A stretch of 25,641 bases of DNA from a virus. The translations under genes were made by a program, and so were the position numbers. The stretch spans positions 1-25,641 of the IMG/VR virus record IMGVR_UViG_3300042905_000374; one strand, given 5' to 3'. Under the pieces are notes generated by a model that saw only the letters and a list, made by a program, of their open reading frames with translations, was not told the DNA's origin and searched no databases. Positions 13,194 to 24,188 of this stretch are shown one piece after another. Position 1 is the first letter of the stretch; each line of letters starts with the position of its first letter.

Positions 13194-13467
13194 ACGCAAA
13201 TACACACCTGAAGAATTACATGCGCGGTTAATTGTCACCATAGGAATTTTGTTAGCGTTGGTGTTTGCTGGTTCAGTCTTTGCTATGTTGTATGCGCTGG
13301 TGTTTGTAACGCAACCTATGGCACAAGCGCCTAATGATGCCGCTTTTATTGATCTTGTTTCCACCCTATGCGTATTCCTTACAGGAACGCTATCAGGCAT
13401 TTTATCTGCTAATGGACTAAAATCTAAACCAAAGCCACAGGAAGGAAAAGAAGATGAGCCTAAATAA
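13171..13467 (+). CDS. two-helix membrane protein, candidate holin
   Basis: The 98-residue protein has a basic N-terminus ('MARRKYTPEELHARL' after an internal ATG at 13186) and two hydrophobic helices at about residues 20-46 and 60-83. The tail is charged and Lys-rich ('GLKSKPKPQEGKEDEPK'). Two helices plus a charged tail fit a class II holin. Start 13171 overlaps the lipoprotein gene, and start 13186 has a GGAAAA sequence upstream, so either is possible. It overlaps the endolysin gene by 14 bases, which suggests coupled expression for lysis. Confidence 0.65.
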   Translation: MWKIKMARRKYTPEELHARLIVTIGILLALVFAGSVFAMLYALVFVTQPMAQAPNDAAFIDLVSTLCVFLTGTLSGILSANGLKSKPKPQEGKEDEPK

Positions 13468-14191: not shown

Positions 14192-14214
14192 GCCCCGCTA
14201 ACGCGGGGCTTTTT
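14192..14214 (+). terminator. strong intrinsic terminator ending the late operon
   Basis: GCCCCGC (14192-14198) pairs perfectly with GCGGGGC (14203-14209) around the loop TAAC, followed by TTTTT. It lies a few bases after the last lysis gene and clearly separates the structural and lysis block from the genes to the right. Confidence 0.93.
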
Positions 14215-16029: not shown

Positions 16030-16058
16030 TTGTATTTGTCAGCGCCATAGGGTCTAAT
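16030..16058 (+). promoter_or_regulatory. putative rightward promoter in the divergent region
   Basis: TTGTAT (16030-16035) and TCTAAT (16053-16058) are separated by 17 bases and would serve the rightward early genes from 16104. A small hairpin, GGGCT/AGCCC (16070-16083), follows in the leader. The -10 box matches consensus at five of six positions and the -35 box at three. Confidence 0.4.
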
Positions 16059-16103
16059 TCTCCCTACAAGGGCTGGTTAGCCCCCTGACAGGAAGGCAAG
16101 AAA

Positions 16104-16295
16104 ATGGGTCACAGACTTATTGATGAAAATGGCACAACAATTACAGGGCAGATCAGAATGGTGTTTGTTTGCGACATGTGCGGCAACACAGCCGATTTTT
16201 ACCATGGCATGACAACTTACGCAGGCGTAATTAAAAACACTATTACGGCTGCAAGTTTTTGTTCAGAAATTTGTGCAAGAAAAGCGGTGGCATAA
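16104..16295 (+). CDS. small zinc-finger-like protein
   Basis: The 63-residue protein follows an AGGAAGG ribosome site. Its N-terminus is beta-rich and contains 'CDMCG', and the C-terminus contains 'CSEICARK', giving two CxxC pairs separated by about 28 residues, a probable zinc-binding treble-clef or ribbon. It is the first gene of the rightward block after the divergent region. Its role is unknown. Position suggests early expression. Confidence 0.65.
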   Translation: MGHRLIDENGTTITGQIRMVFVCDMCGNTADFYHGMTTYAGVIKNTITAASFCSEICARKAVA

Positions 16296-16469
16296 ATGTC
16301 ATGCACATTATGTGATTGCACAAGTTATTTAGGAATAACATTACAAAACAACAAGTTTCTTTGTTTCAGTTGCATACTTGAAATAAAAAAGTACAAGCAA
16401 CATGCGCCAAATCCATTTCAAATTGTGGAACACCCATTAGATTATTTTCCAATGATCGGAGCAAAATAA
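16296..16469 (+). CDS. cysteine-rich 57-residue protein
   Basis: An ATG directly after the previous stop opens a frame of 58 codons ending in TAA at 16467-16469, one base before the next ATG. The N-terminus has 'MSCTLCDCTSYLG' and then 'FLCFSCILEIKKYK', giving two cysteine pairs of zinc-ribbon spacing. The remainder is polar with prolines. Its exact fit between two genes with no spacer supports expression. No function is recognised. Confidence 0.6.
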   Translation: MSCTLCDCTSYLGITLQNNKFLCFSCILEIKKYKQHAPNPFQIVEHPLDYFPMIGAK

Positions 16470-17060
16470 ATGGCAAATTACAAAGGCCCATTAGATTACA
16501 TTGATGTTGCAACACGCATAATTGAATTCCGCGAAAAGTATCCAACAGGTTCTTTACAGTCATGGAAAGACCCGTATGTAATTGAAGTAAAAATGCCTGA
16601 CGGATCTATCAAAAGTTACATGGTGTATAGCGCGGCTGCATACCGCACACCTGATGACAAATTACCAGGCGTAGGTTGGGCGTACGAGCCAATACCAGGG
16701 CCAACAAACTTTACGCGTGACAGCGAATTACAGAACGCGGAGACAGCCGCGTGGGGTCGCGCCATGGTTGCCGCTCTTGCTGTTGATACTAAAAAAGGCA
16801 TTGCATCATCTGAAGAAGTACGCAACCGCCAAACAAAAACAACTGATGCACCACAAGCAAAAGCACCTGCGGCTAAGCGTGAATACACAACTGATGAAAT
16901 TGCAAGCGCAACAGCCGTGTTTGCTTTGATTGAAGCAACATCTGATTTAGATGAACTCAAATCAGCATGGCAGTTAAATGCAGATCTTCTTGATGTGGTT
17001 ATTGATGGCGTAACTTTGCGTGACACAATCTTGGCAAAGAAAGATGCAATCAATGGATAA
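16470..17060 (+). CDS. probable ERF/Rad52-like single-strand annealing protein
   Basis: The 196-residue protein has 'YIDVATRIIEFREKYPTGSL', 'YMVYSAAAYRTPDDKLPGVG', 'AYEPIPG' and 'SELQNAETAAWGRAMVAAL' followed by 'KKGIASSEEVRNR'. This series is a recurrent pattern in actinophage proteins annotated as ERF or Rad52-like recombinases, in which the 'NAeTSAWGRAiva' helix is the most conserved element. It would anneal single strands during phage recombination and replication. The C-terminal third (about residues 125-196) is a linker plus helices that may bind SSB or nuclease partners. Cas4-like nuclease, SSB and RusA genes nearby support this. Confidence 0.6.
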   Translation: MANYKGPLDYIDVATRIIEFREKYPTGSLQSWKDPYVIEVKMPDGSIKSYMVYSAAAYRTPDDKLPGVGWAYEPIPGPTNFTRDSELQNAETAAWGRAMVAALAVDTKKGIASSEEVRNRQTKTTDAPQAKAPAAKREYTTDEIASATAVFALIEATSDLDELKSAWQLNADLLDVVIDGVTLRDTILAKKDAING

Positions 17061-21707: not shown

Positions 21708-22084
21708 TTACTTTTCAGGTAGATGGTCAGCCAGTTCCGCAAGGATCTATGAAGGTCATCAATGGGCATGTCATTCATGCCAAAGGTTCAGAACTAGCCG
21801 CATGGCGTTCTGCCATTGCTTTGCGGGCTAGAGAAGCAGGGGCAAAGCCGCACCTTGAACCTGTTGAAATTGACATGATTTTCACAATGACCCGTCCAAA
21901 GACTGTAAACCGCCCTGAGCCATCAGTAGCGCCTGACCTAGACAAACTGGTGAGAGCAGTCCTAGATGGTCTCACGGCTATCGCCTATCGTGATGATGGG
22001 CAGGTTGTACGCCTGACCGCAGCCAAGATCTATGGGGTCACGCCTGGGTTGTGGGTTCAAATGTGGGCAAAAATGCCTGCGTAG
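21704..22084 (+). CDS. RusA-like Holliday junction resolvase
   Basis: The GTG at 21704 overlaps the previous stop and gives 126 residues, the family's usual length. The N-terminus 'FQVDGQPVPQGSMKVING' is the typical RusA opening strand. The active-site region 'APDLDKLVRAVLDGLTAIAY' and 'RDDGQVVRL' carries the acidic residues D78, D80, D88 and D97/D98 expected to bind metal and cut branched DNA. It would resolve recombination and replication junctions before packaging and completes the recombination set with the annealing protein and Cas4-like nuclease. Confidence 0.88.
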   Translation: MITFQVDGQPVPQGSMKVINGHVIHAKGSELAAWRSAIALRAREAGAKPHLEPVEIDMIFTMTRPKTVNRPEPSVAPDLDKLVRAVLDGLTAIAYRDDGQVVRLTAAKIYGVTPGLWVQMWAKMPA

Positions 22085-22085
22085 G

Positions 22086-22101
22086 GTGTGACCAGTCACA
22101 C
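22086..22101. promoter_or_regulatory. perfect inverted repeat, possible operator
   Basis: GTGTGAC, two bases, then GTCACAC form a 16-base palindrome just after the RusA stop. The absence of a following T run argues against a terminator. It lies upstream of the promoter at 22133-22160 and could be a regulator binding site. Confidence 0.45.
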
Positions 22102-22132: not shown

Positions 22133-22160
22133 TTGCCAAATACCTACTACCTAGTGTAAT
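22133..22160 (+). promoter_or_regulatory. putative sigma70-type promoter
   Basis: TTGCCA (22133-22138) and TGTAAT (22155-22160) are separated by 16 bases, with five of six consensus matches in each box. The site lies in the 122-base gap after the RusA gene and would drive the cluster of small genes from 22207. Confidence 0.6.
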
Positions 22161-22199
22161 CTTTTCTTTGTAAGGGGGAAACGCCCCCAAAGAAAGAAG
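22161..22199 (+). promoter_or_regulatory. 5' leader hairpin before the small-gene cluster
   Basis: GGGGG and CCCCC pair around AAACG, and outside them a pyrimidine-rich CTTTTCTTT pairs with AAAGAAAG with one mismatch or G-U pair. The structure covers most of the leader and ends at the AGAAGG ribosome site of the gene at 22207. It may control ribosome access or RNA stability. Confidence 0.5.
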
Positions 22200-22206
22200 G
22201 CTCCAA

Positions 22207-22398
22207 ATGATGTTTCTCAAGGTCACAAATAATCGCTATGTTTCATTTGATGGCAAATTTGAAATTGTAAAACTTGGTGTTGGTATTTGGTCTGTTAGCA
22301 AAAAAAATGACAATGATCAATACTTTTCACTTTATTACAGTTTTTCATTTGAAAGCGCATCAAAAGCAATGGCAGAGTTGCAAAAGGTAGGTGCATAA
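22207..22398 (+). CDS. hypothetical 63-residue protein
   Basis: The first gene after the promoter, with AGAAGG six bases before the ATG (a second ATG follows at once). The protein is a mixed beta-alpha type ('VSFDGKFEIVKLGVGIWSVS', 'QYFSLYYSFSFESASKAMA'), with no cysteines and no membrane segment. It overlaps the next gene by one base. Function is unknown. Confidence 0.65.
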   Translation: MMFLKVTNNRYVSFDGKFEIVKLGVGIWSVSKKNDNDQYFSLYYSFSFESASKAMAELQKVGA

Positions 22399-22634
22399 TG
22401 AGTAACCGCCTATGGGTAGATGACAATGGAACAGTAGTTTGTGATCAACACGCAGGTATGTATTTGCGTTGTGCGATTGAAGCAAAACCAAAAGCAATCA
22501 AACACCGCACACCGCTTGGAACTTGGTGCGCTTATTACACACATCTTCTAGGTGGAGAAAATTTAGTGTGTGAAGTTTGCACACCTTGGAATTCACCTGA
22601 TCACCCATACAACAAAATGAAGGCAGGCGCATAA
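22398..22634 (+). CDS. cysteine-containing 78-residue protein
   Basis: The gene starts at an ATG overlapping the previous stop. It contains 'VVCDQHAGMYLRCAI', a Trp/Tyr-rich middle and 'LVCEVCTPW', so one CxxC and other Cys/His residues could bind zinc. It is tightly coupled to the following small genes. I do not recognise the family. Confidence 0.65.
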   Translation: MSNRLWVDDNGTVVCDQHAGMYLRCAIEAKPKAIKHRTPLGTWCAYYTHLLGGENLVCEVCTPWNSPDHPYNKMKAGA

Positions 22635-22792
22635 TGTTAATTAGATACACAGAAAATGGAGTGCGTTACCAATACAAGGCAAAAAAGTGCATTACCAACA
22701 TTCACCCTATTTGCATTAGTTCTGACTCAAATCTTCCTGAGTGCATTTGCTGGTGCGCAGAGTGCAGAGAACATAGAAAGGCAAAAAAATGA
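22634..22792 (+). CDS. cysteine-rich 52-residue protein
   Basis: The ATG at 22634 overlaps the previous stop and the frame ends at TGA 22790-22792. The N-terminus is basic and the C-terminus contains 'ECICWCAECREH', a dense cysteine cluster followed by a basic tail. Six cysteines in 52 residues suggest zinc binding. Overlaps on both sides support a real gene. Confidence 0.6.
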   Translation: MLIRYTENGVRYQYKAKKCITNIHPICISSDSNLPECICWCAECREHRKAKK

Positions 22793-22959
22793 AATTCAAA
22801 GTTGTAGTGACTGTGGAGTTAAATGATTTTGTAATCCCACCAAACAAAAGTCAATCAATGATAAATGGCATGCAACGCGAACAAGTCTTGTATGCCATTT
22901 ATGACAAATTGGCTGAAATGCACCCACAGATCCATAATGTTTACAAGCAACGATCCTAG
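22789..22959 (+). CDS. hypothetical 56-residue protein
   Basis: This frame overlaps the previous gene by four bases and ends at TAG 22957-22959. Beginning with a short strand ('KFKVVVTVELNDFVIPP') and ending in a helix ('REQVLYAIYDKLAEMHPQI'), it may fold as a small alpha/beta domain. No cysteines or recognised motifs. It overlaps the following gene by 23 bases. Confidence 0.6.
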   Translation: MKFKVVVTVELNDFVIPPNKSQSMINGMQREQVLYAIYDKLAEMHPQIHNVYKQRS

Positions 22960-23101
22960 ATGTATTTGGTGCGGTACTTATGGTTCACCTGCAAATTTTG
23001 TAATTGTATTTGAAACAGAAGAAGGCAACCCACTTTGCGAGTGCGAGTGGTGCGGTAAACAAGAATGGTTCAGGAGGAAGGCAAGCAATGGCAAAGAGTA
23101 A
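22937..23101 (+). CDS. zinc-ribbon-like 54-residue protein
   Basis: The ATG at 22937 gives a short protein with 'CIWCGTYG' and 'CECEWCGKQEWFRRK', two CxxC pairs spaced as in zinc ribbons. A longer in-frame start (22865) is less likely because it lies deep in the previous gene and adds no conserved feature. There is no strong ribosome site, so translation may depend on coupling to the preceding gene. Confidence 0.55.
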   Translation: MFTSNDPRCIWCGTYGSPANFVIVFETEEGNPLCECEWCGKQEWFRRKASNGKE

Positions 23102-23243
23102 ATTGACACGCAGAGGCAAGATTGTTTTGGGTATTTTGTTTGTAATAGCCGTGTGTTGGCTGTACGACATAACAACGCCTGATCAATGCAAGGTAGCAAT
23201 TGAGAACATGTCTGAATGGTGCAAAGATTTGAGATACCCATGA
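23088..23243 (+). CDS. small single-pass membrane protein
   Basis: The ATG at 23088 follows AGGAGG by ten bases and gives 51 residues. A basic N-terminus ('MAKSKLTRRGK') leads into one hydrophobic helix ('IVLGILFVIAVCWLYD') and a short tail with 'QCKVAIENMSEWCKDL', which carries two cysteines. The charge pattern places the N-terminus in the cytoplasm and the tail outside. Function unknown. It overlaps the next start. Confidence 0.65.
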   Translation: MAKSKLTRRGKIVLGILFVIAVCWLYDITTPDQCKVAIENMSEWCKDLRYP

Positions 23244-23353
23244 GCGGGCCTTATGGACAAACTCAATGCGACACATGCGAACAATTTGAGGCAATTTGTG
23301 AAGAATGTGGCGTGTGTTTTGTATGTTGCGGCGTAAAAGAACATAAGGAGTAA
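23240..23353 (+). CDS. 37-residue protein with eight cysteines
   Basis: ATG 23240 overlaps the previous stop and the frame ends at TAA 23351-23353. The sequence has 'QCDTCEQF' then 'ICEECGVCFVCCGVKEH', so about one residue in five is cysteine. The spacing allows one or two zinc sites. The tight fit between neighbouring genes argues for expression, but it is one of the smallest genes called here. Confidence 0.55.
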   Translation: MSGPYGQTQCDTCEQFEAICEECGVCFVCCGVKEHKE

Positions 23354-23358
23354 ATGAC

Positions 23359-23565
23359 ATGACACCTGAAGAAATAATTAAAAACCATCTTGAACCGCTA
23401 GAAGATGTTTTGACAACCTGGATTGAAAGCCCTTATGTGGCAAAGATGTTGGGTGAACCTGAAACGCGTGAGCGCTACATGGGCTTTGTAGAAGGGTTAC
23501 GGCTGAGCAGGGCAAATGTAATTCAAGCAAAAATCAACTTAACACCACAGGAGGAAGAAGAATGA
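23359..23565 (+). CDS. hypothetical 68-residue helical protein
   Basis: ATG 23359 follows AAGGAG by eight bases. The protein is helical and acidic ('PEEIIKNHLEPLEDVLTTWI', 'ERYMGFVEGLRLSRANVIQA') and ends in four glutamates. No motif is recognised. It overlaps the next frame by four bases. Confidence 0.65.
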   Translation: MTPEEIIKNHLEPLEDVLTTWIESPYVAKMLGEPETRERYMGFVEGLRLSRANVIQAKINLTPQEEEE

Positions 23566-23645
23566 TGTTTATTGCAAGCGTAATTATTGTGACCCTTTTG
23601 GGCGTTGTAATTAGTGAGATTTGCTATAAAATAGAGCAGTCCTAA
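23562..23645 (+). CDS. 27-residue membrane microprotein
   Basis: The frame starts at ATG 23562 after AGGAGG-type sequence and ends at TAA 23643-23645. Almost all of it is one hydrophobic helix ('MMFIASVIIVTLLGVVISEI') with a polar end. Real expression is suggested by the ribosome site and the overlap, but a chance frame cannot be excluded. Confidence 0.45.
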   Translation: MMFIASVIIVTLLGVVISEICYKIEQS

Positions 23646-23669
23646 AAATAACCTGAAAGGGGTAAAGAA

Positions 23670-23759
23670 ATGGACAGTTTAATCAATCGTTGTTTGTGCG
23701 GTAGTTGGGTTTACGGTACTGCCGCTTGCGAAGTGTGTAGAAAGTTGGCGAAAGGCTAA
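23670..23759 (+). CDS. 29-residue zinc-ribbon-like microprotein
   Basis: ATG 23670 follows AAAGGGG and the frame ends at TAA 23757-23759. Four cysteines in the pattern 'CLCGSW' and 'CEVC' form two CxxC or CxC pairs. Its stop lies just three bases before the likely start of the secreted transglycosylase gene, in the same frame. Confidence 0.45.
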   Translation: MDSLINRCLCGSWVYGTAACEVCRKLAKG

Positions 23760-23762
23760 AGC

Positions 23763-24188
23763 CTGAAGCGTCTAACACAAATCCTTTTAAGCGCCGCATT
23801 AGCGGTAGGAATTGTGTTTGCTTCACCTGCGGCGGCTCAAGCACCAAAATTACAGTTGCATCAAATGCCGCCAAAAGTCATTGCACTTGAGATGGTGAAG
23901 AAAAATTATCCTGATCATAAAAAGCAATTTGCCTGCCTAGAACAATTGCTTTACAAGGAGAGTGGGTGGAGGGTCAATGCCCTGAACCGCTCATCAGGCG
24001 CATTTGGGCTTTTCCAGTTTTTGCCTTCAACATGGAAAAATTACAAGTACCCTTACATGCCCAAAGACGCTTACACGCAAATCAAGGCTGGCTTGCGCTA
24101 TGTGTACAAGCGTTACTCCACTCCCTGCGGGGCTTGGGAATTTTGGAAAAAGCAGGCTGGCCCTGACATGCACGGAGGTTGGTACTAA
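23763..24188 (+). CDS. secreted lytic transglycosylase (SLT/lysozyme-like), CTG start
   Basis: The first ATG or GTG in this frame is GTG 23814, which would remove most of a signal sequence. Starting at CTG 23763, seven bases after AAAGG, gives 'MKRLTQILLSAALAVGIVFA', an ordinary Sec signal followed by 'SPAAAQA' as a cleavage region. The mature domain has the transglycosylase pattern 'CLEQLLYKESGWRVN' with catalytic Glu66 and 'SSGAFGLFQFLPSTW', ending in 'YSTPCGAWEFWKK'. It would cut the glycan backbone of peptidoglycan outside the membrane. Its location among early genes, apart from the lysis cassette, suggests a role other than endolysis, for example wall remodelling. Confidence 0.8.
   Translation: MKRLTQILLSAALAVGIVFASPAAAQAPKLQLHQMPPKVIALEMVKKNYPDHKKQFACLEQLLYKESGWRVNALNRSSGAFGLFQFLPSTWKNYKYPYMPKDAYTQIKAGLRYVYKRYSTPCGAWEFWKKQAGPDMHGGWY

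Follow-up and report, generated by a model that had tools for sequence, protein, structure and literature searches.

Mobile regulatory cassettes termed PeSL are said to occur in the hyperplastic regions of T4-type phages, a description attributed to Arbiol in 2010 and to Comeau in 2014. The available parts of two reports (PMC4503421, PMC4177764) present these regions as collections of small, functionally uncharacterised accessory genes, which are shuffled between related phages and have promoter and stem-loop modules between them. The array of small genes described here was found in a 25,641-base IMG/VR virus record (hereafter the window, meaning the whole stretch analysed; GC 43.5%), and it resembles those regions in that a promoter and stem-loop module recurs between accessory genes, both at the start of the array and at internal sites. 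The comparison with T4 PeSL draws on secondary text, and on this basis the array differs in several respects: its covarying hairpin comes after the promoter, where the mRNA is predicted to begin; most of its joints are linkers of 14-20 nt made up of stop codon, Shine-Dalgarno (SD) sequence and start codon, rather than promoters, and exchange proceeds gene by gene; and its carriers are probable actinophages of ~40 kb.

A second described system comes from actinophages. Start-associated sequences (SAS) and their extended forms (ESAS) occur in mycobacteriophages of Cluster K and Microbacterium phages of Cluster EF, the ESAS being an inverted repeat upstream of some SAS (PMC3203893, PMC7302621, accessible sections). 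Likeness to the array lies in the actinophage setting, which is probable for the array, and in a start-associated motif at the SD position, represented in the array by its linkers, that is common to non-structural genes of different families. In contrast, RNA pairing is reportedly not supported by the repeats of ESAS (PMC3203893, accessible text) but is supported by the leader hairpin of the array, and the accessible sections of both reports link SAS to no cassette slot (PMC3203893, PMC7302621). Furthermore, the 13-bp SAS consensus GGGATAGGAGCCC, which belongs at the SD position, has 0 matches in the window with up to 3 mismatches. The array works like T4 PeSL regions and SAS/ESAS, but it is not SAS.

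Other systems share part of this design. Early anti-defence regulons of archaeal viruses were found through a shared regulatory sequence, and two of them were validated by experiment; like the array, they combine diverse and unrelated accessory genes with a shared leader and are unconserved between close relatives, but the array has one leader per operon instead of one per gene, and its function is a proposal from sequence comparison (PMC11065993). The 'Ca. Nanopelagicales' phages E7 and F5 are alike in size (~39 kb), GC content (~45%), possession of WhiB and high gene flux, and differ in that no cassette array is described in the accessible part of the report (PMC10202952); neither phage was found in the collection searched. 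Finally, integron arrays also consist of combinatorial single-gene cassettes behind one promoter, but neither a recombinase nor an attC-like site was found for the phage array.

The genes of the window include WhiB, RusA, a C5 methyltransferase, SSB and HNH. The closest named relatives of its RusA and transglycosylase are mostly actinophages, all at less than 60% identity, and these relatives, together with WhiB, indicate that the host of this phage family is probably an actinobacterium. The likeness to E7 and F5 is no more than a hint of a freshwater origin and a Nanopelagicales host (PMC10202952, accessible part). A DNA search against named phages gave no match, and a search for WhiB in genomes gave no match useful for host assignment. 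The relatives compared are viral contigs, mostly metagenomic (labelled L003, L008 and so on, the window being W), with genes called by mechanical chaining. Identical arrays recur in separate records (e.g., L031/L032/L034, L025/L026 and L014/L015), which argues against assembly error. Elsewhere in the window, a strong hairpin (GCCCCGC-TAAC-GCGGGGC, followed by TTTTT) at 14192-14209, 3' of the structural and lysis genes, is a likely terminator.

The array itself comprises ten plus-strand genes of 27-78 residues at 22207-23759, between RusA (ending at 22084) and the transglycosylase. The original prediction counted about nine genes in this size range; the range holds, but the genes number ten, since a 63-aa gene at 22207..22398 (o0) opens the run. 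This variable cassette is found in the window, in L019 and partly in L003, and has relatives at 26-39% in some phages bearing o1. The next gene, o1 (22398..22634; 78 aa, 5 Cys), is also a variable cassette; it is 69-86% identical in other phage lineages that do not have the core genes of the window, and relatives at ~41% occur in M. chelonae/abscessus prophages. The final cassette of the variable slot is o2 (22634..22792; 52 aa, 6 Cys), which is also present in L019, L079 and L081, with a partial tblastn match in L020. The conserved o3 (22789..22959; 56 aa) forms the right border of this slot and is followed by the conserved o4 (22937..23101; 54 aa, 5 Cys) and by o5 (23088..23243; 51 aa), which has one hydrophobic, membrane-like segment and is swapped for a membrane-like protein of 59-64 aa in some relatives. 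An optional cassette, o6 (23240..23353; 37 aa, 7 conserved Cys), occurs in the window, L003, L008 and L086. The run ends with the conserved o7 (23359..23565; 68 aa, no Cys), the conserved membrane-like microprotein o8 (23562..23645; 27 aa) and o9 (23670..23759; 29 aa, 4 Cys), which is among the most widely conserved members.

The five reading frames predicted to carry paired cysteines (starting at 22398, 22634, 22937, 23240 and 23670) are indeed present, except that the one at 23240 has 7 Cys instead of 8, and the two proposed membrane microproteins, at 23088 and 23562, are both membrane-like. The genes were also thought to be linked by short overlaps; they are tightly linked, but two junctions are gaps of 5 and 24 nt. 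The overlaps of o3/o4 (22937-22959; 23 nt) and o4/o5 (23088-23101; 14 nt) each involve different frames and are kept in many relatives. Downstream of o9, the transglycosylase (23763-24188) has an apparent CTG start just after the o9 stop and a signal-peptide-like beginning (LKRLTQILLSAALAVGI); no ATG, GTG or TTG occurs ahead of codon 18, and 19 of 20 distinct relatives retain the CTG.

In the close clade, a promoter-like pair together with a hairpin and an SD opens the array, 109-124 nt past RusA. In the window, the promoter-like TTGCCA-N18-TAATCT (22133..22162, plus strand), which takes the form TTGACA-N17-TAATNT in several relatives, is followed by the hairpin GGGGG-AAACG-CCCCC (22174..22188, plus strand) and then by the SD AAAGAAAGAAGG. 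The proposal that the genes stand behind one promoter survives as a single leader and promoter, but these lie at 22133-22201 and the run does not start at 22398. A generic promoter scan found no excess over shuffles, and the pair at 22133-22162 is too weak for such a scan, so that the putative promoter rests on comparison. An inverted repeat, GTGTGAC-CA-GTCACAC, lies just 3' of the RusA stop (22086..22101), and differing inverted repeats occupy this position in many relatives; it is a possible terminator or operator.

The hairpin, by comparison, shows clear covariation. Across 19 distinct hairpins of 15 nt, no cell is unpaired and 14 cells carry compensated two-sided changes, while the covariation score was reached in 0 of 500 shuffles and was far lower in every slid control. 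Because related sequences can beat shuffles without any structure, the slides and the unbroken pairing weigh more; the MFE z-scores alone are weak, and the case for the hairpin thus rests on covariation. A covariance model locates the leader at the array of relatives, usually as one strong copy per ~40 kb genome, and internal copies precede some cassettes (L009, L027, L029, L057, L089, L093, L098 and L101). In more distant relatives, hairpins with other stems can be seen by eye at the same place. Rfam gave no match to the window or to seven loci. A separate intergenic stretch of 99 nt with several inverted repeats (cccgcccctagtgggtt...ggcgggcgctag, tagtaccaccgtggtacta) lies in the gap after family F45 in L093 and L095 and between families F43 and F44 in L091; it may be a structured RNA, and it too has no Rfam match.

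When 28 complete arrays of close relatives, defined by a RusA identity of 88% or more, are compared, the cluster divides into a conserved and an exchanged half. This division is absent from the original prediction, as are the single-gene exchange unit with its shared linkers, the covarying hairpin of the leader and the second slot in the window. The right part, o3-o4-o5-o7-o8-o9, is kept nearly always. The interval between RusA and o3, which holds o0, o1 and o2 in the window, is hypervariable, with 1-7 variable cassettes per array. These cassettes form 48 families in 27 gene orders among the 28 arrays (counts that take in the few insertions of the right half, except o6 and families F22 and F25), and the accumulation curve is still rising. 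Cassette sharing and core DNA identity are uncorrelated (Spearman rho 0.08, p 0.12): some pairs of arrays with core DNA 94-95% identical have no cassette in common, and cassettes 98.6-98.9% identical occur in arrays whose cores are only 79-88% identical. The comparison strongly supports exchange of array genes between related phages.

What is exchanged appears from arrays that have one cassette in common and different genes beside it. On the left, sequence identity drops to the background level at the start codon of that cassette, and on the right it does so immediately beyond its stop codon, from which it follows that the exchange unit is, in this sequence comparison, a single gene. The joints are short stop/SD/start linkers that are common to unrelated genes: GGTAACTAATTATG occurs in 14 contexts, with 10 families to its left and 9 to its right, and GAGGCAAAATAATG and GAGGCAAACTAATG occur in 8 and 7 contexts, respectively. 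The repeated protein tails KAGN, EAN and EAK result from these common linkers. The joints of the window are of type GGTGCATAATG and GGCGCATAATG, which are also found around o1 in other phage lineages. Furthermore, a scan of viral contigs found the exact 20-mer AAGGCAGGTAACTAATTATG in 22 contigs, where it joins 11 upstream with 14 downstream families, and in some of the phages that bear it the core proteins match those of the window at only 31-65% identity.

It is known that phage mosaics are built by relaxed homologous recombination (PMC3945230). Tentatively, we propose that the array is integron-like without a recombinase: phages of several lineages would share the linkers of 14-20 nt, and any small gene could swap singly into a translation-coupled, hairpin-led operon, forming a common pool of counter-defence microproteins. 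A serious competitor to our best reading, given below, though one we hold at rather less than even odds, is ordinary mosaicism, in which illegitimate recombination is random, selection keeps the joints at gene borders and the linkers are SAS-like translation signals instead of exchange points. Selection by itself would leave borders at start and stop codons; an SD core is part of the linkers, selection on translation could keep them, and SAS-like signals are known from non-structural genes of differing families, at whose starts they lie (PMC3203893, accessible text). Against this, the exact 14-20-mers reach past the SD and the start codon (AACTAATT) and join many unrelated families, and the linkers are absent from 15 structural-gene starts or junctions in the window.

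A second slot of the same design is located at 16054-16469. Its leader (16054..16103, plus strand) contains the hairpin GGGCT-GGTT-AGCCC (16070-16083) with an SD, and is followed by two plus-strand cassettes with Cys pairs, of 63 aa with 4 Cys (16104..16295) and of 57 aa with 5 Cys (16296..16469). The first is present or absent among relatives, and the second is 52% identical to cassette family F11, a family found in the first slot of other phages. Relatives carry neither, one or both cassettes, and where both are missing the next gene directly follows the leader. The gene behind the slot in the window (16470-17060; 196 aa) lies among recombination genes and matches only PHROG families of unknown function, the best being phrog_23738; its motif QNAETAAWGRA presumably recalls single-strand annealing proteins.

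Two Cys/His pairs give many of the array products the look of small zinc-ribbon-like proteins, for which zinc binding is predicted. A CxxC motif is present in 30 of 75 array families (40%) versus 3 of 36 other window genes (8%; Fisher p = 0.0007), part of the contrast being due to the small size of the array proteins, as the figure is 15% among other genes of up to 130 aa. Two invariant Cys/His pairs of the zinc-ribbon-like kind were found in o1 (C15/H18/C58/C61) and in o4 (CxxC...CxxC; C9/C12/C36/C39), and both fit a predicted zinc site. A PDB sequence search with the o1 and o4 profiles gave nothing significant, and o1 had no match in bacterial species genomes. In the Mycobacterium phage McProf (gp87-gp86; L109, 5001-6204), a relative of o1 precedes an ADP-ribosyl glycohydrolase gene and overlaps its start; this prophage also has a Tdi-like immunity gene. 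The McProf neighbourhood is a possible hint to the function of o1.

Our best reading, with a probability of about 0.6, is that of an operon of exchangeable single-gene microprotein cassettes, the exchanged ones being early host-takeover or counter-defence factors. Transcription would proceed from the sigma-70-like promoter at 22133-22162 to give one early-type transcript, whose 5' end would be the short hairpin (22174-22188) followed by a strong SD. In most downstream genes the start codon is joined directly to the preceding gene's end, which makes a short linker of stop, SD and start and probably couples translation. Relatives replace o6 and the cassettes that lie between leader and o3 (o0-o2 in the window) singly, the probable route being homologous recombination between co-infecting phages at the linkers and conserved flanks, and o3-o5 and o7-o9 stay as a conserved tail. 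The exchanged cassettes are probably takeover or counter-defence factors because the archaeal-virus anti-defence genes were found by this pattern of high variability behind a common leader (PMC11065993), and such loci show hypervariability and horizontal exchange together with a shared leader. Among 76 cassette families, Pfam recognised only GP88, DUF7249 and a C5 methyltransferase; that two families elsewhere match C5 methyltransferase and GP88 fits accessory cargo. In the libraries searched, no known family of anti-defence or takeover proteins is matched by an array protein of the window.

The conserved tail could be of another nature, namely an envelope or lysis accessory module (o7, o8, o9 and perhaps o3-o5) belonging with the downstream transglycosylase and not counter-defence cargo. 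Close relatives do not depart from the order o7-o8-o9-transglycosylase, membrane-like segments are present in o5 and o8, and the transglycosylase adjoining o9 has the signal-peptide-like start noted above. We nevertheless consider this unlikely, as o9 and o4 resemble metal-site proteins and an endolysin candidate is already present at 13454 (weak matches to NlpC/P60 and CHAP that stay below cut-off). An integron-like site-specific cassette system, in which a dedicated recombinase works on the linkers, would account for single-gene cassettes, one promoter and a repeated joint; it is highly improbable, since tyrosine and serine recombinase models (PF00589, PF00239) had no match in nine relatives of 38-42 kb, with positive controls, and the linkers are plain start/stop sequences and not folded attC-like sites. 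Models of the annealing recombinases ERF and RecT likewise had no match in the nine relatives.

That the small frames are spurious and untranslated is scarcely credible, despite their lengths of 27-78 residues and lack of database matches, given pN/pS values of 0.00-0.42, third positions richest in substitutions, and frames that stay intact across exchange. These values cover all ten frames in relatives from viral contigs (two sequences for o0, three each for o2 and o6), and the comparison shows that the frames are real and coding; family F6 (24-40 aa), a reading frame over the RusA tail, gave 1.03, was rejected as an artefact and serves as the control. Lack of conservation of the small frames in close relatives, which the original prediction had named as grounds for refutation, was thus not observed. 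Its remark that some genes are too short for standard gene callers is supported for several array genes, and its statement that they have no recognised function agrees with searches of the ten array proteins against Pfam, PHROGs, NCBIfam and PADLOC, which gave nothing above cut-off.

The array offers a clean natural case in which to ask whether mosaicism at gene borders arises through recombination at linkers or from selection alone. The leader hairpin and linker together provide a sequence rule by which accessory genes, probably for counter-defence, can be located in uncultured phages, and this rule reaches genes that are missed by gene callers and family libraries. A single slot yields dozens of small protein families, many of them with Cys pairs.
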